Source: Acidobacteriota bacterium (GTDB lineage: Bacteria > Acidobacteriota > Terriglobia > Bryobacterales > Bryobacteraceae). From it: a stretch of DNA of 60,470 nucleotides. Each line of letters starts with the position of its first letter. Position 1 is the first letter of the stretch. Below the pieces are notes generated by a model, which saw only the letters and a list, made by a program, of their open reading frames with translations, was not told where the DNA came from and searched no databases. Below, piece after piece: positions 3,366 through 11,017 of the stretch. The DNA is taken from positions 1 to 60,470 of the forward strand of contig CANIVU010000051.1 in the NCBI GenBank assembly GCA_947470805.1, read 5' to 3'. A program made the position numbers and the translations under genes.

Positions 3366-4157
3366 ATGATTGCGTCTAACAAAGAATTCATCAGCTGGAA
3401 ACACGTCACTGTTTATCGGGACGAACAGCTGGCCCTGGATGACATTAACTTAACGATTAGCACGGGCGAAAACGTCGCCATTGTCGGGCCGAACGGCTCC
3501 GGGAAATCCACGCTGATCAAGACTGTCACCCGTGAACTGTACACTCGCTGGCCTCCGCCGCGGTGCGAAATGCGCATTTTGGGGCAGCAGATCTGGAATG
3601 TTTGGGAACTGCGTTCCTGGATGGGGATCGTCACCAATGACCTGGTGCAACTGTGCACGCAGCCCTATTCGGTGTTCGAAACCATCCTTTCCGGCTTTCA
3701 TTCCAGCGTCGGCATCTGGCCGTATCATCCGGTCACTCCGGAGATGGAGGCGCGGGCCGAGGAGTTGTTGGACTACCTGGAGATCCGGCACCTGCGGGAG
3801 CGGCTGATGACGGAGTTGTCATCGGGCGAGGCGCGGCGGGCGGTGATTGCGCGGGCGTTGGCGCATTCGCCGAAGGCGCTGTTGCTCGACGAGCCGACCA
3901 ACAGCCTGGACATCCGGGCGATGGCCGAATTGCGCGATGCCATGCGGAAGCTGGCGCAAACCGGCGTTGCCGTGATTCTGGTGACGCACCATCTGCCCGA
4001 CATTATTCCGGAGATCGATCGCGTGATTTGCATGCGCAATGGGAAGGTGTTCCAGGACGGGCCGAAGCGCGAGATGTTGACGGCGGAGCGCTTGAGCGAG
4101 CTGTTCGGCATGCCGATTACCGTGGAGCAACGTGATGGCCTCTACCACATGTGGTAG
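3366..4157 (+). CDS. ABC transporter ATP-binding protein
   Basis: Single ABC ATPase domain of 263 residues counted from the ATG at 3366; a TTG at 3345 would add seven residues. Visible motifs are Walker A GPNGSGKST at residues 41-49, a signature LSSGEARR (a variant of LSGGQ), Walker B ALLLDEPT followed by the D-loop, and an H-loop VTHH. The layout resembles the ModF/YlmA-like group of stand-alone ATPases. No permease gene is adjacent, so the transported substrate, or whether it transports at all, is unknown. It is divergent from the TonB receptor across about 60 bases and overlaps the next gene by 23 bases, which suggests co-expression. Confidence 0.9.
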   Translation: MIASNKEFISWKHVTVYRDEQLALDDINLTISTGENVAIVGPNGSGKSTLIKTVTRELYTRWPPPRCEMRILGQQIWNVWELRSWMGIVTNDLVQLCTQPYSVFETILSGFHSSVGIWPYHPVTPEMEARAEELLDYLEIRHLRERLMTELSSGEARRAVIARALAHSPKALLLDEPTNSLDIRAMAELRDAMRKLAQTGVAVILVTHHLPDIIPEIDRVICMRNGKVFQDGPKREMLTAERLSELFGMPITVEQRDGLYHMW

Positions 4158-4560
4158 CGACGAACTCGATGCGCTGCTGGCGGAGGCGGCGCTCCCTGGG
4201 CGCGCGGTGCGGAGCGGGGACAGCCTGTTCCTGTATCGCCATGGGCGCTGGTATGTGTTGATGGACCATGAGCAGACCGGGGCGTGGCGCCATCTGATCT
4301 GCGCGCCGGAAGACGAGATGCGGCGACGCGTTCTGCGCGGAACGCCGCGGGCGGCGGCGGTGCCGGCGGGGTTGGAACAGCGCGTATTGGCAACGGCGGA
4401 GGAGTATCTGGCGTTGTACAGCGCGGGCGAACTGCGGTTGTTCGGAGGCCCGGCGTCGGACCAGATCCATTCGCCGGAGACCGAGCCTGCGTTTCTGCGG
4501 ACGGTGGCCTATTTACTCGACAAGGGCACCGGGCAGTATTGGCTGCGCTTCGTGCGGTAA
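4135..4560 (+). CDS. Hypothetical protein, coupled to the ABC ATPase
   Basis: Protein of 141 residues that I do not recognise. It starts at an ATG (4135) inside the last codons of the ABC ATPase gene, in another frame; a GTG directly before it is an alternative start. The overlap implies translational coupling. It has no signal peptide or membrane segment and is rich in Trp, Tyr and Arg (GRWYVLMDH, GQYWLRFVR), so it is probably a small soluble cytoplasmic protein. Its stop lies 18 bases before the tRNA-Ile gene. The coupling is the only functional clue: it may work with the ATPase. Confidence 0.75.
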   Translation: MASTTCGSDELDALLAEAALPGRAVRSGDSLFLYRHGRWYVLMDHEQTGAWRHLICAPEDEMRRRVLRGTPRAAAVPAGLEQRVLATAEEYLALYSAGELRLFGGPASDQIHSPETEPAFLRTVAYLLDKGTGQYWLRFVR

Positions 4561-4578
4561 ACTCAAGGAGTTCGGTTC

Positions 4579-4854
4579 GGGCCCTTAGCTCAATGGTTAG
4601 AGCAGCGGACTCATTCCCCTAAAGAGTGCACTGGGACGGGAAACTGCCCATGTGAATTGTGTCAAAGTCGGTGAACGCTGAACAGGTCATGCTGAAGCCA
4701 ACGCCGAGCCAAGCCCCGCAAGGGGAAGGTGTAGAGACTTGACGGCACACAGCTACAGCGGCAACGCCAGGCTGAAGGCAAAGTCCAGAGAGTGTGGAAA
4801 CACACACCAATCGGAATCCGTTGGTTGTAGGTTCAAGTCCTACAGGGCCCACCA
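4579..4854 (+). tRNA. tRNA-Ile2 (CAU), interrupted by a group I intron
   Basis: The 5' exon is 4579-4614 and the 3' exon 4815-4854, which join to a 76-nt tRNA with an encoded CCA. The acceptor stem is GGGCCCT paired with AGGGCCC. The anticodon stem GCGGA/TCCGT encloses the loop CTCATAA with anticodon CAT at 4612-4614. From memory, the exons closely match Escherichia coli tRNA-Ile2 (ileX), whose CAU is modified to lysidine to read AUA, rather than tRNA-Met. The intron sits immediately 3' of the anticodon. A spurious minus-strand ORF crosses this gene and carries the 'GPVGLEPTT' signature typical of mistranslated tRNA genes. Confidence 0.95.
4615..4814 (+). ncRNA. Group I self-splicing intron, Azoarcus-like (IC3 type)
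   Basis: A 200-nt intron without an open reading frame. The guide GTG at 4626-4628 can pair with the exon CAT, giving the U-G wobble at the 5' splice site, and the last intron base is G4814 (omega-G). A P2 hairpin with a GGGAAA loop lies at 4629-4654. Core segments (GCCAACGCCGAGCCAAGC, GAAGGTGTAGAGACTTGACG, AAGTCCAGAGAGTG) correspond to P4-P6, P7 and P9 of the Azoarcus tRNA-Ile intron as I remember it, and a GAAA-capped P9 hairpin is at 4792-4805. It should self-splice with guanosine as cofactor. With no homing endonuclease it is immobile or dependent on another mechanism. Confidence 0.93.
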
Positions 4855-5042
4855 AAAAAAATGCGGGACGTGAGAATTTCCGGCCCGCGTTTGCGCAATG
4901 AATAGGTGAGCGGTGCCACGGCTCGCTTTTTCGGAGGAAAGTTCAATCGGACGGCGGCACTGGCGATTGCGCCAACAGCCGCCGCCAACTTCCCCCACAT
5001 ATCCAAAACCCGATGCGGTTCGGCTAGCATCAGGGTAGGTGT

Positions 5043-5939
5043 ATGCCTGCCAGATGGATGAAACAGTGGATGCTCGCGGCCGGTGTTTACAACATCGTCT
5101 GGGGCGTGGTGTTTGGTGTGTTTCCGAATGCCCTGTTTGATTGGGCGGGCATGGAGCGGCCGAACTATCCGGAGCTTTGGCAGTGCATTGCGATGATCGT
5201 CGGTGTGTATGGCGTGGGCTATGCGGCGGCGTCGGTTAACCCGTATCGCCATTGGCCGGTGATCCTGGTTGGGTTCATGGGCAAGGTGTTTGGGCCGATT
5301 GGATTTCTGCAGGCCGCGCTGAGCGGGCGCATGCCGTGGAAGTTTGGCACGGTCAACATCTTTAACGATCTGATCTGGCTGGTGCCGTTCTTTCTGATCC
5401 TTCGCGGGGCGTGGCGGGCGTATCTGGCCGATCCGGGGGCGGAGTCGGCCGATGTGAGGGATCAGAATGGGGAGTCGTTGGATTCATTGTCGAAAGATCA
5501 GCCGGTTTTATTGGTGTTTTTGCGGCATTTCGGTTGTACGTTTTGCCGGGAGGCGCTGGCGGATCTGCGTGTGCAGCGGTCGCGCTTGGAGGCGGCCGGA
5601 GTGCGGATCGCACTTGTCCACATGAGCCCGGACGCGGAGGCGGCGGAGTTTTTCGCGCGGTATTCGCTGGATGATGTGGCGCGGCTTTCGGATCCCGGGC
5701 GTGGGCTGTACCGGCGCTTTGAACTGCGGCGTGGGGATTGGGGGCAGTTGTTTGGGCTGGCGGTGTGGCTGCGCGGGGCGCGTGCGATTGTCGCCGATGG
5801 GCATGGCCTGGGTGCGCTGGCTGGTGACGGGTTTCAGATGCCGGGCGCGTTCCTGGTGTTGGATGGAAAGATCGTGCGGGAGTTCCGGCACGAATCGGCG
5901 GCGTCGCGGCCGGACTACTGCAAATTGGCGGCGGTGTAG
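5043..5939 (+). CDS. Membrane protein fused to a SelL/AhpC-TSA-type redox domain
   Basis: Protein of 298 residues in two parts. Residues 1-125 hold about four hydrophobic segments (around 8-30, 48-66, 73-92 and 108-124). Residues 138-298 form a thioredoxin-fold peroxiredoxin-like domain of the AhpC-TSA_2/SelL group, with FLRHFGCTFC and redox cysteines at C165 and C168. In SelL proteins these positions can be selenocysteine; here both are ordinary Cys codons. The likely role is membrane-associated thiol-disulfide or peroxide chemistry, and the substrate is unknown. The last 25 bases overlap the convergent PfkB gene. The nearby selC gene shows that this organism probably also makes selenoproteins. 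Confidence 0.8.
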   Translation: MPARWMKQWMLAAGVYNIVWGVVFGVFPNALFDWAGMERPNYPELWQCIAMIVGVYGVGYAAASVNPYRHWPVILVGFMGKVFGPIGFLQAALSGRMPWKFGTVNIFNDLIWLVPFFLILRGAWRAYLADPGAESADVRDQNGESLDSLSKDQPVLLVFLRHFGCTFCREALADLRVQRSRLEAAGVRIALVHMSPDAEAAEFFARYSLDDVARLSDPGRGLYRRFELRRGDWGQLFGLAVWLRGARAIVADGHGLGALAGDGFQMPGAFLVLDGKIVREFRHESAASRPDYCKLAAV

Positions 5940-6843: not shown

Positions 6844-8496
6844 TTAGTTTTTGCCGGAGCCGCCGCTGCCGGAACCTGAACCAGAGCTGCCGGAACCCGA
6901 GCCGCTGTTGCCCGAGCCGGAACCGCTGCTCCCCGAACCAGAACCGCTGCTGCCTGAGCCAGAGCCACTGCTGCCTGAGCCGGAGCCGCTGTTGCCTGAG
7001 CCGGAGCCGGAGCCGCTGTTGCCCGAACCGGAACCGCCGCTGCCCGAACCGGAACCGCTATTGCCCGAGCCGGAACCGCCGCTGCCCGAACCCGAGCCGC
7101 TATTGCCCGAACCGGAGCCGCTATTGCCCGAACCAGAACCACTGCTGCCTGAACCCGAGCCGCTATTGCCCGAACCAGAACCACTGCTGCCCGAACCCGA
7201 CCCACTATTCCCCCCGCCCGAATTCGGCCCCTTCGGATCATCCACCTTCGGCCCCGGCACCGCAGGCACTTCCGTAAACGACTTCGCCTGCACCACACCC
7301 GTCAACAGGACCCCGCCTGCCGCCGTCCGCACGCTGACAACCTCACCGGCCCCAAACGTCGGCAGCACGCCGCCATCCCGCGTGTTGATCTCCAACTCAC
7401 CACCTCGCATTGGCGGCGGCCCGACTGTGATCTTCCCAATCACCTTGTCACCCACGAACACATTCACAACCGTCCCCACGGGCAGGTTCAACTTCTCAAT
7501 CTCAATGCTCAACTTCTGATCTGTCCCGCTCACGCGGAAGTCCACCGATCCCGTCGGCTGTACGCCACCGATAGCCCCGCCCGTCAAACCGGACTGTACA
7601 CGAGATACAGCGCTGCTCCCGCCCGAGGAAGAAGACGACGAAGAAGACGAGGCCGCCGACGAATCATCCGGCCGCCGGTCATCCCCAAACGACCGCACCT
7701 GCAACGCGCCCGCCAGGATCGGACCCGACGGCGCCAGCACCCGTACCATATCCCCCGCCTTCAACGATTCCACCCGTTCCCCGTTCCGGCTGTCCAACTC
7801 CAATTCGCCGCCGCGCCGCGATCCCGAAAGGCGAATCTTCCCCATCCGCCGTCCGTTCACTTCCACTTCTACTTCCGAGCCATCGCGCAGATTCACATCG
7901 TTCACTTCCACGAACAGCCGCGTGCTGCGTGTCAGCCGGTCGTCGCGAAACTCCACTTCGCCCGACGGCCGGATGCCGCCCAGTCCGCCGCCCGTCAGCG
8001 GGGAACGCAGGACACTCTTGTCATCCGGCACGGACGCAGCCAGCACCGGCGACGCGGTCGGCGCCGCGTTGACCGGCGAATCGTCCAGAACGCGCCGTTG
8101 CAGCACGCCACTCAGCAAGGTTCCAGCGTTGCTCCGGAGGCTCACCACATCGCCCGCTTCCAGCTTCGGGACCGCCGCCCCATCGCGCGACGAAAGCTCA
8201 ATTTCGCCCCCACGCGCCGGCAACCCGGACACCACCAGACGGCCGATCGGCTCGTTGTTCACCCACACCTGCAACGTCGTGCCGGCGGGAAGGTTCAGGT
8301 CCTCGACTTCCAGGTTAAAGCTGCGGTCGCCACGAGAGGGGCGCAACCGGAAATCGGCGGAGCCGGACGCAACAATGCCTCCGAGCGGCCCGCCCGCCAA
8401 CTGCGTTCGCAGCCGCACCTCGTCGAAATCGCCCGCAAGAGAAACGCCGCCCGCGATCATCGCAGCCAGCGCCAGTGCCTTTTGTGTCTTGAACAT
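6844..8496 (-). CDS. Exported protein with three internal repeats and a Gly/Ser tail
   Basis: Protein of 550 residues, family not recognised. A short signal peptide (MFKTQKALALAAMIAGGVSLA) is followed by three copies of a domain of about 107 residues, at roughly 29-135, 163-270 and 305-412. Each copy shares the pattern L.GG.(L/I)GG...(S/T)G...FR, a G(K/R)(I/L).(V/L)SG segment, an RGGE(I/L)E(L/I) strand and a closing G.(V/L)Q element. Residues from about 425 to the C-terminus are almost entirely Gly and Ser in seven-residue units. The layout suggests a secreted or surface protein with a flexible linker tail. The start has a hydrophobic leader directly after it. It is divergent from the enolase-superfamily gene across 119 bases. 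Confidence 0.85.
   Translation of the reverse strand: MFKTQKALALAAMIAGGVSLAGDFDEVRLRTQLAGGPLGGIVASGSADFRLRPSRGDRSFNLEVEDLNLPAGTTLQVWVNNEPIGRLVVSGLPARGGEIELSSRDGAAVPKLEAGDVVSLRSNAGTLLSGVLQRRVLDDSPVNAAPTASPVLAASVPDDKSVLRSPLTGGGLGGIRPSGEVEFRDDRLTRSTRLFVEVNDVNLRDGSEVEVEVNGRRMGKIRLSGSRRGGELELDSRNGERVESLKAGDMVRVLAPSGPILAGALQVRSFGDDRRPDDSSAASSSSSSSSSGGSSAVSRVQSGLTGGAIGGVQPTGSVDFRVSGTDQKLSIEIEKLNLPVGTVVNVFVGDKVIGKITVGPPPMRGGELEINTRDGGVLPTFGAGEVVSVRTAAGGVLLTGVVQAKSFTEVPAVPGPKVDDPKGPNSGGGNSGSGSGSSGSGSGNSGSGSGSSGSGSGNSGSGSGNSGSGSGSGGSGSGNSGSGSGSGGSGSGNSGSGSGSGNSGSGSGSSGSGSGSSGSGSGSSGSGSGNSGSGSGSSGSGSGSGGSGKN
6850..7215 (-). repeat. 21-bp coding tandem repeat (Gly/Ser heptads)
   Basis: About sixteen imperfect 21-bp units encode SGSGSG followed by N, S or G; one unit is enlarged by two residues. 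It forms the C-terminus of the exported repeat protein. Such arrays often vary in copy number by slippage, and the antisense frame reads as a Pro/Glu/Leu repeat. Confidence 0.9.
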
Positions 8497-10922: not shown

Positions 10923-11017
10923 GGAAGCTAATCTTGGCCGGTGCTGGGCCTGGTCTTCAAAACCAGCGTGTGGTGCGTATGCGTCACGGTGGGTTCGACT
11001 CCCACTAGCTTCCGCCA
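10923..11017 (+). tRNA. selC: tRNA-Sec (selenocysteine tRNA)
   Basis: A 95-nt tRNA with the bacterial selC hallmarks. The acceptor stem has eight base pairs (GGAAGCTA/TAGCTTCC). The T-stem has five (GTGGG/CCCAC around TTCGACT), giving the 13-bp stack. The anticodon stem CTGGT/ACCAG encloses CTTCAAA with anticodon TCA at 10957-10959. A long variable arm follows, and the 3' end is GCCA with G as discriminator. It decodes UGA as selenocysteine with SelB. No selA, selB or selD is in the window. Its last 13 bases overlap the 3' end of the convergent HD gene. Confidence 0.96.

Follow-up and report, generated by a model that had tools for sequence, protein, structure and literature searches.

The locus between positions 4579 and 4854 of a 60,470-nucleotide stretch of acidobacterial DNA (the window) contains two tRNA halves, of 36 nt (4579-4614) and 40 nt (4815-4854), which flank an insert of 200 nt. 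Is the insert a working intron, what does the host lose if it is not, and to which known introns is it related? We hold with high confidence that it is a functional group I intron without an endonuclease, that it belongs to subgroup IC3 and to the tRNA-Ile2(CAU) lineage known from Azoarcus, and that it splits the only tRNA-Ile2 gene of this acidobacterium. Introns of this kind are already known from other bacteria; the new part is the host group, probably the genus Candidatus Sulfopaludibacter, and the patchy presence of the intron within it.

Joining the exons

When position 4614 is joined to 4815, ARAGORN folds the product into a 76-nt cloverleaf with the anticodon CAU, as expected from the initial annotation, which had the two halves forming a tRNA-Ile2. 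The program labels this product tRNA-Met, and it calls CAU for several alternative joins as well. The 4614/4815 join is preferred on three counts: it gives back the anticodon stem that congeners have in their uninterrupted genes, leaves a U before the intron, and ends the intron with a G. The joined tRNA aligns gap-free with the uninterrupted genes of two congeners (G003 and G014), at 96-97% identity.

A default ARAGORN scan of the whole window does not call a tRNA at 4579-4854, and an Rfam scan of the whole window at the gathering score reports neither intron nor tRNA there; the same Rfam scan reports a tRNA-Sec and one other tRNA, both elsewhere in the window. Thus, with both tools at their default settings, an essential tRNA escapes routine annotation.

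Pfam searches with four neighbouring genes of the window identified an ABC transporter, an AhpC/TSA-like protein, and a PfkB kinase, left 4132-4560 unmatched, and suggested no intron factor among the four. Repeats around the locus are not telling. Further along, an ORF on the minus strand (6844-8496) ends in an extended tail of Gly-Ser repeats; the long open frames that cover this tail on either strand are seemingly its shadows. The tRNA-Sec gene lies at 10923-11013 on the plus strand (72.1 bits), and selenoprotein synthesis in the host is therefore a possibility.

Features of the split tRNA gene and its intron in window coordinates; percentages refer to cells of the 25-row alignment
Feature	Position	Strand	Basis
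tRNA-Ile2(CAU) 5' exon, ending with anticodon C34-A35-U36	4579-4614	+	ARAGORN on exon join
Group I intron, 200 nt, IC3-like, between tRNA positions 36/37	4615-4814	+	RF00028 (42.2 bits) and R2 (180.4 bits)
P1, 4612-4616 with 4624-4628; U4614.G4626 at 5' splice site; guide GUG 4626-4628	4612-4628	+	97.6% paired; standard in window
P2 hairpin, GAAA loop 4640-4643	4632-4650	+	84.0% paired; standard in window
P3 5' strand, partner 4744-4749	4658-4663	+	Alignment and window pairs
P4 5' strand, partner 4704-4707	4668-4671	+	Alignment and window pairs
P5, 4677-4678 with 4697-4698	4677-4698	+	Alignment and window pairs
P4 3' strand	4704-4707	+	Alignment and window pairs
P6, 4708-4710 with 4728-4730	4708-4730	+	Alignment and window pairs
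P7 5' strand, partner 4781-4785; guanosine-binding helix, pseudoknot with P3	4736-4740	+	Alignment
P3 3' strand	4744-4749	+	Alignment and window pairs
P8, 4750-4753 with 4771-4774	4750-4774	+	Alignment and window pairs
P7 3' strand	4781-4785	+	Alignment and window pairs
P9.0 (4788-4789 with 4811-4812) and P9 (4792-4796 with 4801-4805, GAAA loop 4797-4800)	4788-4812	+	Alignment and window pairs
Terminal (omega) G of intron	4814	+	Sequence; invariant in 25 rows, but row selection required G
tRNA-Ile2(CAU) 3' exon, CCA encoded 4852-4854	4815-4854	+	ARAGORN on exon join

A compact group I intron

The features listed in the initial annotation (a length of 200 bases, a GUG guide for the exon CAU, a terminal G, and GAAA hairpins at P2 and P9) are all present in the sequence. 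The guide G4626-U4627-G4628 faces C4612-A4613-U4614, and both the U.G pair at the 5' splice site and the terminal G4814 are in place, although selection of the alignment rows demanded both that U and that G. Subgroup IC3 lacks P5(a-d), according to the available part of PMC11835236, and the P5 region here is short, which by this measure fits the subgroup. Exon ACUC could alternatively pair with GAGU at 4624-4627, making this a possible competitor of P1.

Of the tertiary contacts, both GAAA loops are present, and the P5 and P8 segments of the window differ from what we take to be the canonical 11-nt GAAA receptor; by that motif, such receptors are absent from P5 and P8. Under a strict pattern, the P8 receptor form occurs in 31 of the 87 listed unique CAU introns, and the P5 form in 17 of the 87.

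The initial annotation has no endonuclease here, and none is seen among the ORFs of the intron: the one plus-strand ORF wholly within it is 27 aa, and ORFs overlapping 4579-4854 reach at most 139 aa. Judged by ORF size, this supports the reading of the intron as one without an endonuclease.

Evidence for the fold

A permissive Rfam search of 4480-4960 (481 bases) gives the group I model RF00028 as the top-ranked match, at 4602-4807, with 42.2 bits and an E-value of 1.6e-9. Over the 8.7-Mb genome, this is the single RF00028 match at E ≤ 10 (E 7e-9). The search with this model, suggested beforehand as a check, therefore gave a genome-wide match beyond chance; the score, however, does not reach the gathering score of 50, which is a curator's threshold and not a biological feature. 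RF00028 matched 7 of 61 related genomes, every one below 50 (best 48.5), and five introns on viral contigs score 51.6-62.1.

A lineage-specific model, R2, was built from 24 CAU introns with acidobacterial sequence excluded. R2 gives the window 180.4 bits and the introns of two congeners 178.1 and 178.0, and gives six other acidobacterial tRNA introns 70.0-102.3 (two Leu introns among the comparisons score 82.5 and 102.3). Like a second model, R1, it contains ten exon letters and was made from rows selected for the 36/37 insertion point, so that introns at that point are favoured in these scores.

Covariation was assessed in an alignment of the window with 24 CAU introns (25 rows), picked at <88% identity from at least 91, and against a hand-written structure of 43 pairs for P1-P9 that includes the P7 pseudoknot. 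Of the 1075 cells, 97.0% pair, and 22 of the 43 pairs change on both sides, with the P7 pseudoknot among them. In none of 500 shuffles does any of the five measures come up to its observed value, and slid versions of the structure pair at only 23.8-39.4%. From P3 to P9, pairing is 98-100%. P7 pair 193/244 is A-U in 13 of the 25 rows and U-A in 12, and P3 pair 51/202 changes on both sides. P2 is the weakest helix, with two-sided changes at each of its seven pairs. RNAalifold by itself gives 37 pairs, of which 20 have compensatory change. In the window itself, all 43 modelled pairs are standard, and P3 contains U4658-A4749 in place of the G-C common to the 24 other rows, a compensated change. 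Folding energy was dropped as support: the lone 200-nt strand has an unremarkable z of -0.36, and the case therefore rests on homology and covariation. On these grounds, the insert is a well-formed ribozyme of a known family and is probably active; the RF00028 E-value, the covariation, and the R2 score agree with the original assignment to a group I intron in a tRNA-Ile2-type gene.

The sole candidate for reading AUA

The genome contains 50 RF00005 matches at E ≤ 0.1, on which ARAGORN finds 49 distinct tRNA entries; loci for 30 matches and stretches for 18 more cover all 50, two lying inside the loci of neighbours. There are two other CAU genes, L017 and L020, which by their features we take to be an elongator-like and an initiator-like tRNA-Met, respectively. 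The tRNA genes found by RF00005 and ARAGORN in this genome of 220 contigs include one tRNA-Ile(GAU), and neither a tRNA-Ile(UAU) nor a second tRNA-Ile2. A tRNA cut short by the end of its contig (L054) was considered as a second Ile2 and rejected, since its anticodon, read by eye, is CTT, that of a lysine tRNA. With the other two CAU genes Met-like and L054 a lysine tRNA, the split gene is the sole Ile2 candidate found. The gene for TilS is present (140.8 bits, above its cut-off), and AUA accounts for 5 of 111 isoleucine codons in eight ORFs of the window. The claim that Ile2 is essential for AUA thus gains indirect support from the absence of another Ile2 or a tRNA-Ile(UAU) among the genes found and from the presence of TilS.

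In the pathway that we propose, the precursor would be transcribed with the intron inside it, and the core would fold from the P3-P8 and P4-P6 domains. A free guanosine bound by P7 would then attack after U4614, a site set by the U.G pair with G4626, and the freed exon end would next attack after G4814. The joined anticodon loop, CUCAUAA, would receive lysidine from TilS and so read AUA. We infer these chemical steps, the efficiency of splicing, and the charging of the tRNA.

Split and intact genes among relatives

The spliced tRNA matches 18 of 19 genomes of the genus at E ≤ 1e-5; the exception, G007, is 62% complete. The gene is split into two halves in three of the 19 (G000, G004, and G010) and uninterrupted in 15, of which 14 have full-length matches at 86-97% and one (G018) a match at 80% that is likewise a CAU tRNA. 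ARAGORN, run on seven of the 15 uninterrupted genes, calls CAU for all. A neighbouring region is common to the window and 12 of the 15 uninterrupted loci (upstream in ten, downstream in two); the other three showed neither an upstream nor a downstream neighbour in common with it. The genus therefore holds intact and split versions of the gene, mostly at loci with a common neighbour, and so offers a natural test of gain and loss.

Between the three species, the intron is far more conserved than its surroundings. It differs from that of the window at 2 of 200 positions in G004 and 1 of 200 in G010, and the exons at 0 of 76 in both. The 300 bases upstream differ at 14 (G004) and 48 (G010), and the downstream spacer of ~188 at 9 and 24, respectively, giving 99-99.5% identity for the intron versus 84-95% for the nearest flanks. 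In G010, differences restart within ~10 bases of the tRNA ends. This pattern fits selection on the RNA better than a wide conversion tract.

In the family, R1 finds matches in 28 of 237 genomes, at 187.9-190.6 bits in the three split-gene genomes (the window's own score is biased, because R1 includes the window) and at ≤102.2 in the others. In the phylum, it matches 23 of 396 genomes, with 110.2 bits as the best score outside the genus; both searches used stricter filters, with weak matches lost. Among 48 family or phylum loci, a few of which were off-centre or cut, about 29 look like tRNA-Leu(UAA) by eye, and group I introns in this tRNA occur in many genera of the host family (L032, L035, L036, and L236-L260). 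Locus L037 (G024) has a copy of a tRNA-Leu intron whose 5' exon is shortened; the copy immediately follows an intact tRNA-Leu gene and may be a dead duplicate. Elsewhere in the phylum, an Ile2-like tRNA carries its split at 33/34 rather than 36/37 (L276, and L270 as read by eye), which suggests that introns have entered Ile2 at two points.

Relatives in other phyla, plasmids, and viruses

A search with an exact core pattern returned at least 119 genome stretches, mostly titled Betaproteobacteria, and 26 viral stretches; among the matches listed, the intron type is frequent in Betaproteobacteria. At least 155 core matches were parsed, including the window and six acidobacterial loci. Of these, 28 lacked an ARAGORN intron-bearing tRNA and 36 failed a test for CTCAT/AAT across the splice site, leaving 91. 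Two of the 36 (L096 and L127) look CAU by eye, which makes 91 a minimum, and the remaining 34 are a mix of other tRNAs and unassigned cases. The CAU introns at 36/37, at least 91 in number, comprise four rows from the host genus (L192 and L034 being treated as one record), 76 other genome records, and 11 viral contigs. Outside the genus, at least 87 matches (76 from genomes and 11 from viral contigs) have the identical insertion point, as the selection required. The closest of the 87 compared, L145 on a gammaproteobacterial contig, is 82% identical to the intron of the window. Among the genome stretches, one Methylotenera record (L120) has two core matches within 8 kb, and four stretches (L128, L132, L188, and L193) lie in one Polynucleobacter genome.

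In 11 of the 26 viral stretches, an intron of this type splits a CAU tRNA (L206, L207, L210-L214, L217, L219, L222, and L226), and a phage route is therefore possible. L222 also contains a second group I intron (5435-5629). Among ten proteins scanned on four viral contigs, L222 and L226 give phage-family matches (UvsX-like and nicotinamide phosphoribosyl transferase). On L211, an ORF at 3799-4629 beside the intron-bearing tRNA matches the phage endonuclease family phrog_15137 (5.7e-32); at a guess, it could be a free-standing homing enzyme. A BLAST search of plasmids and phages found no record that covers 80% of the query; the matches listed span only some of the intron or a single half of the tRNA. 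Plasmid records with some match to the query number 1273, of which 1267 are at 80-90% identity. Plasmid pCTX-M3 (L231:2948-3140) scores 36.8 bits with RF00028, below the cut-off, near aac(3)-IId in a stretch mostly without a listed gene.

Trees were made from unique introns only (106 and 100 rows). Both place the clade of the window with the CAU introns, across a branch from the Leu introns (93/98 and 99/97), and in the 106-row tree that clade sits on a long stem (branch 0.58). AU tests leave two constraints unrejected: a grouping of the window clade with the Leu introns (p 0.308), and one in which the 75 non-viral CAU introns found outside the genus form one clade (p 0.109). The split of the CAU loop after U36, the trees, and the R2 scores agree on membership in the tRNA-Ile2(CAU) intron lineage, and the AU value of 0.308 is not decisive; from these comparisons, descent within that lineage is likely. 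A single donor was sought in the trees and set aside: the nearest outside row shifted from L226 (a viral contig) to L145 when six long rows (L211, L273, L263, L186, L267, and L236) were dropped, and so no donor is claimed. The suggestion that the intron would be useful for tracing horizontal movement holds in part: the trees group it with the CAU introns, on a long branch and next to no consistent donor.

Alternative explanations

The locus might instead be a relic, with a decayed intron in a tRNA pseudogene and AUA read by another tRNA. The RF00028 score under the curated cut-off would suit such decay, and an assembly in 220 contigs could be missing a second gene. Decay would not, however, be expected to leave 43 of 43 modelled pairs standard, with the P3 change compensated, nor an intron at 99-99.5% identity between flanks at 84-95% and exons identical in three species; with no other Ile2 gene among those found, we give this reading almost no credence. 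A functional intron could also have arisen nearby, by descent from the tRNA-Leu(UAA) introns of the same family and local retargeting to tRNA-Ile2. Leu introns are frequent in the family, and the AU test leaves the grouping unrejected, but R2 scores the window at 180.4 bits against 82.5 and 102.3 for two Leu introns, both trees separate the two groups, and guide and insertion point match the CAU introns. Local retargeting is therefore very improbable.

A recent transfer from a sampled betaproteobacterium is suggested by the frequency of the intron type in that class among the matches listed. It is nonetheless improbable, given that the closest of the 87 outside introns is only 82% identical, that the stem is long and its nearest neighbour changes between trees, and that one locus is common to three species. 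Returning to a functional intron of the Ile2 lineage, we offer as a speculation, and one that may well be wrong, that it represents an old and distinct acidobacterial branch, acquired across phyla, possibly through phages, and retained by three species in a form whose receptors for the GAAA loops have changed. If so, these hosts would depend for all AUA decoding on a ribozyme whose tertiary contacts are a naturally occurring variation on those of Azoarcus.

Relation to known tRNA introns

Open-licence papers yielded no report of a group I tRNA intron for Acidobacteria/Acidobacteriota, Solibacter, or Sulfopaludibacter. In its available part, PMC4033280 places intron-bearing bacterial tRNAs in cyanobacteria and alpha- and beta-proteobacteria, with most introns at 37/38, just after the anticodon (counted 36/37 here); PMC6125680, as available, concerns archaea. 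PMC8450103, likewise in part, describes 36 genomes in which group I introns leave an fMet or Ile2 tRNA uncalled; its examples for Ile2 are Acidovorax and Burkholderia. By that description, the Acidovorax and Burkholderia introns interrupt the same gene and are likewise missed by a tRNA finder, in a different phylum. The window thus extends tRNA-Ile2 introns to a phylum unnamed in the available parts of PMC4033280 (for tRNA introns) and PMC8450103 (for Ile2).

The tRNA-Leu(UAA) introns of the host family are also anticodon-loop group I introns, but with another tRNA and splice point and far lower R2 scores. Introns of tRNA-fMet share a CAU tRNA and the anticodon loop, and two in other genomes of the phylum (L245 and L271) are inserted at 33/34 rather than 36/37. 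A close known counterpart is the intron of Azoarcus sp. BH72 pre-tRNA-Ile (IC3), compared here through the CAU introns of other bacteria. The two presumably share a tRNA-Ile host, a length of ~200 nt, the lack of an endonuclease, a GUG guide on the exon CAU, and GAAA loops on P2 and P9 (L2 and L9). The window differs in its host phylum, in the U-A outer pair of P3, in swapped P8 and P5 pairs, and in GAAA-receptor segments that are not canonical. For Azoarcus pre-tRNA-Ile, crystal structures exist, according to the available part of PMC3984707.
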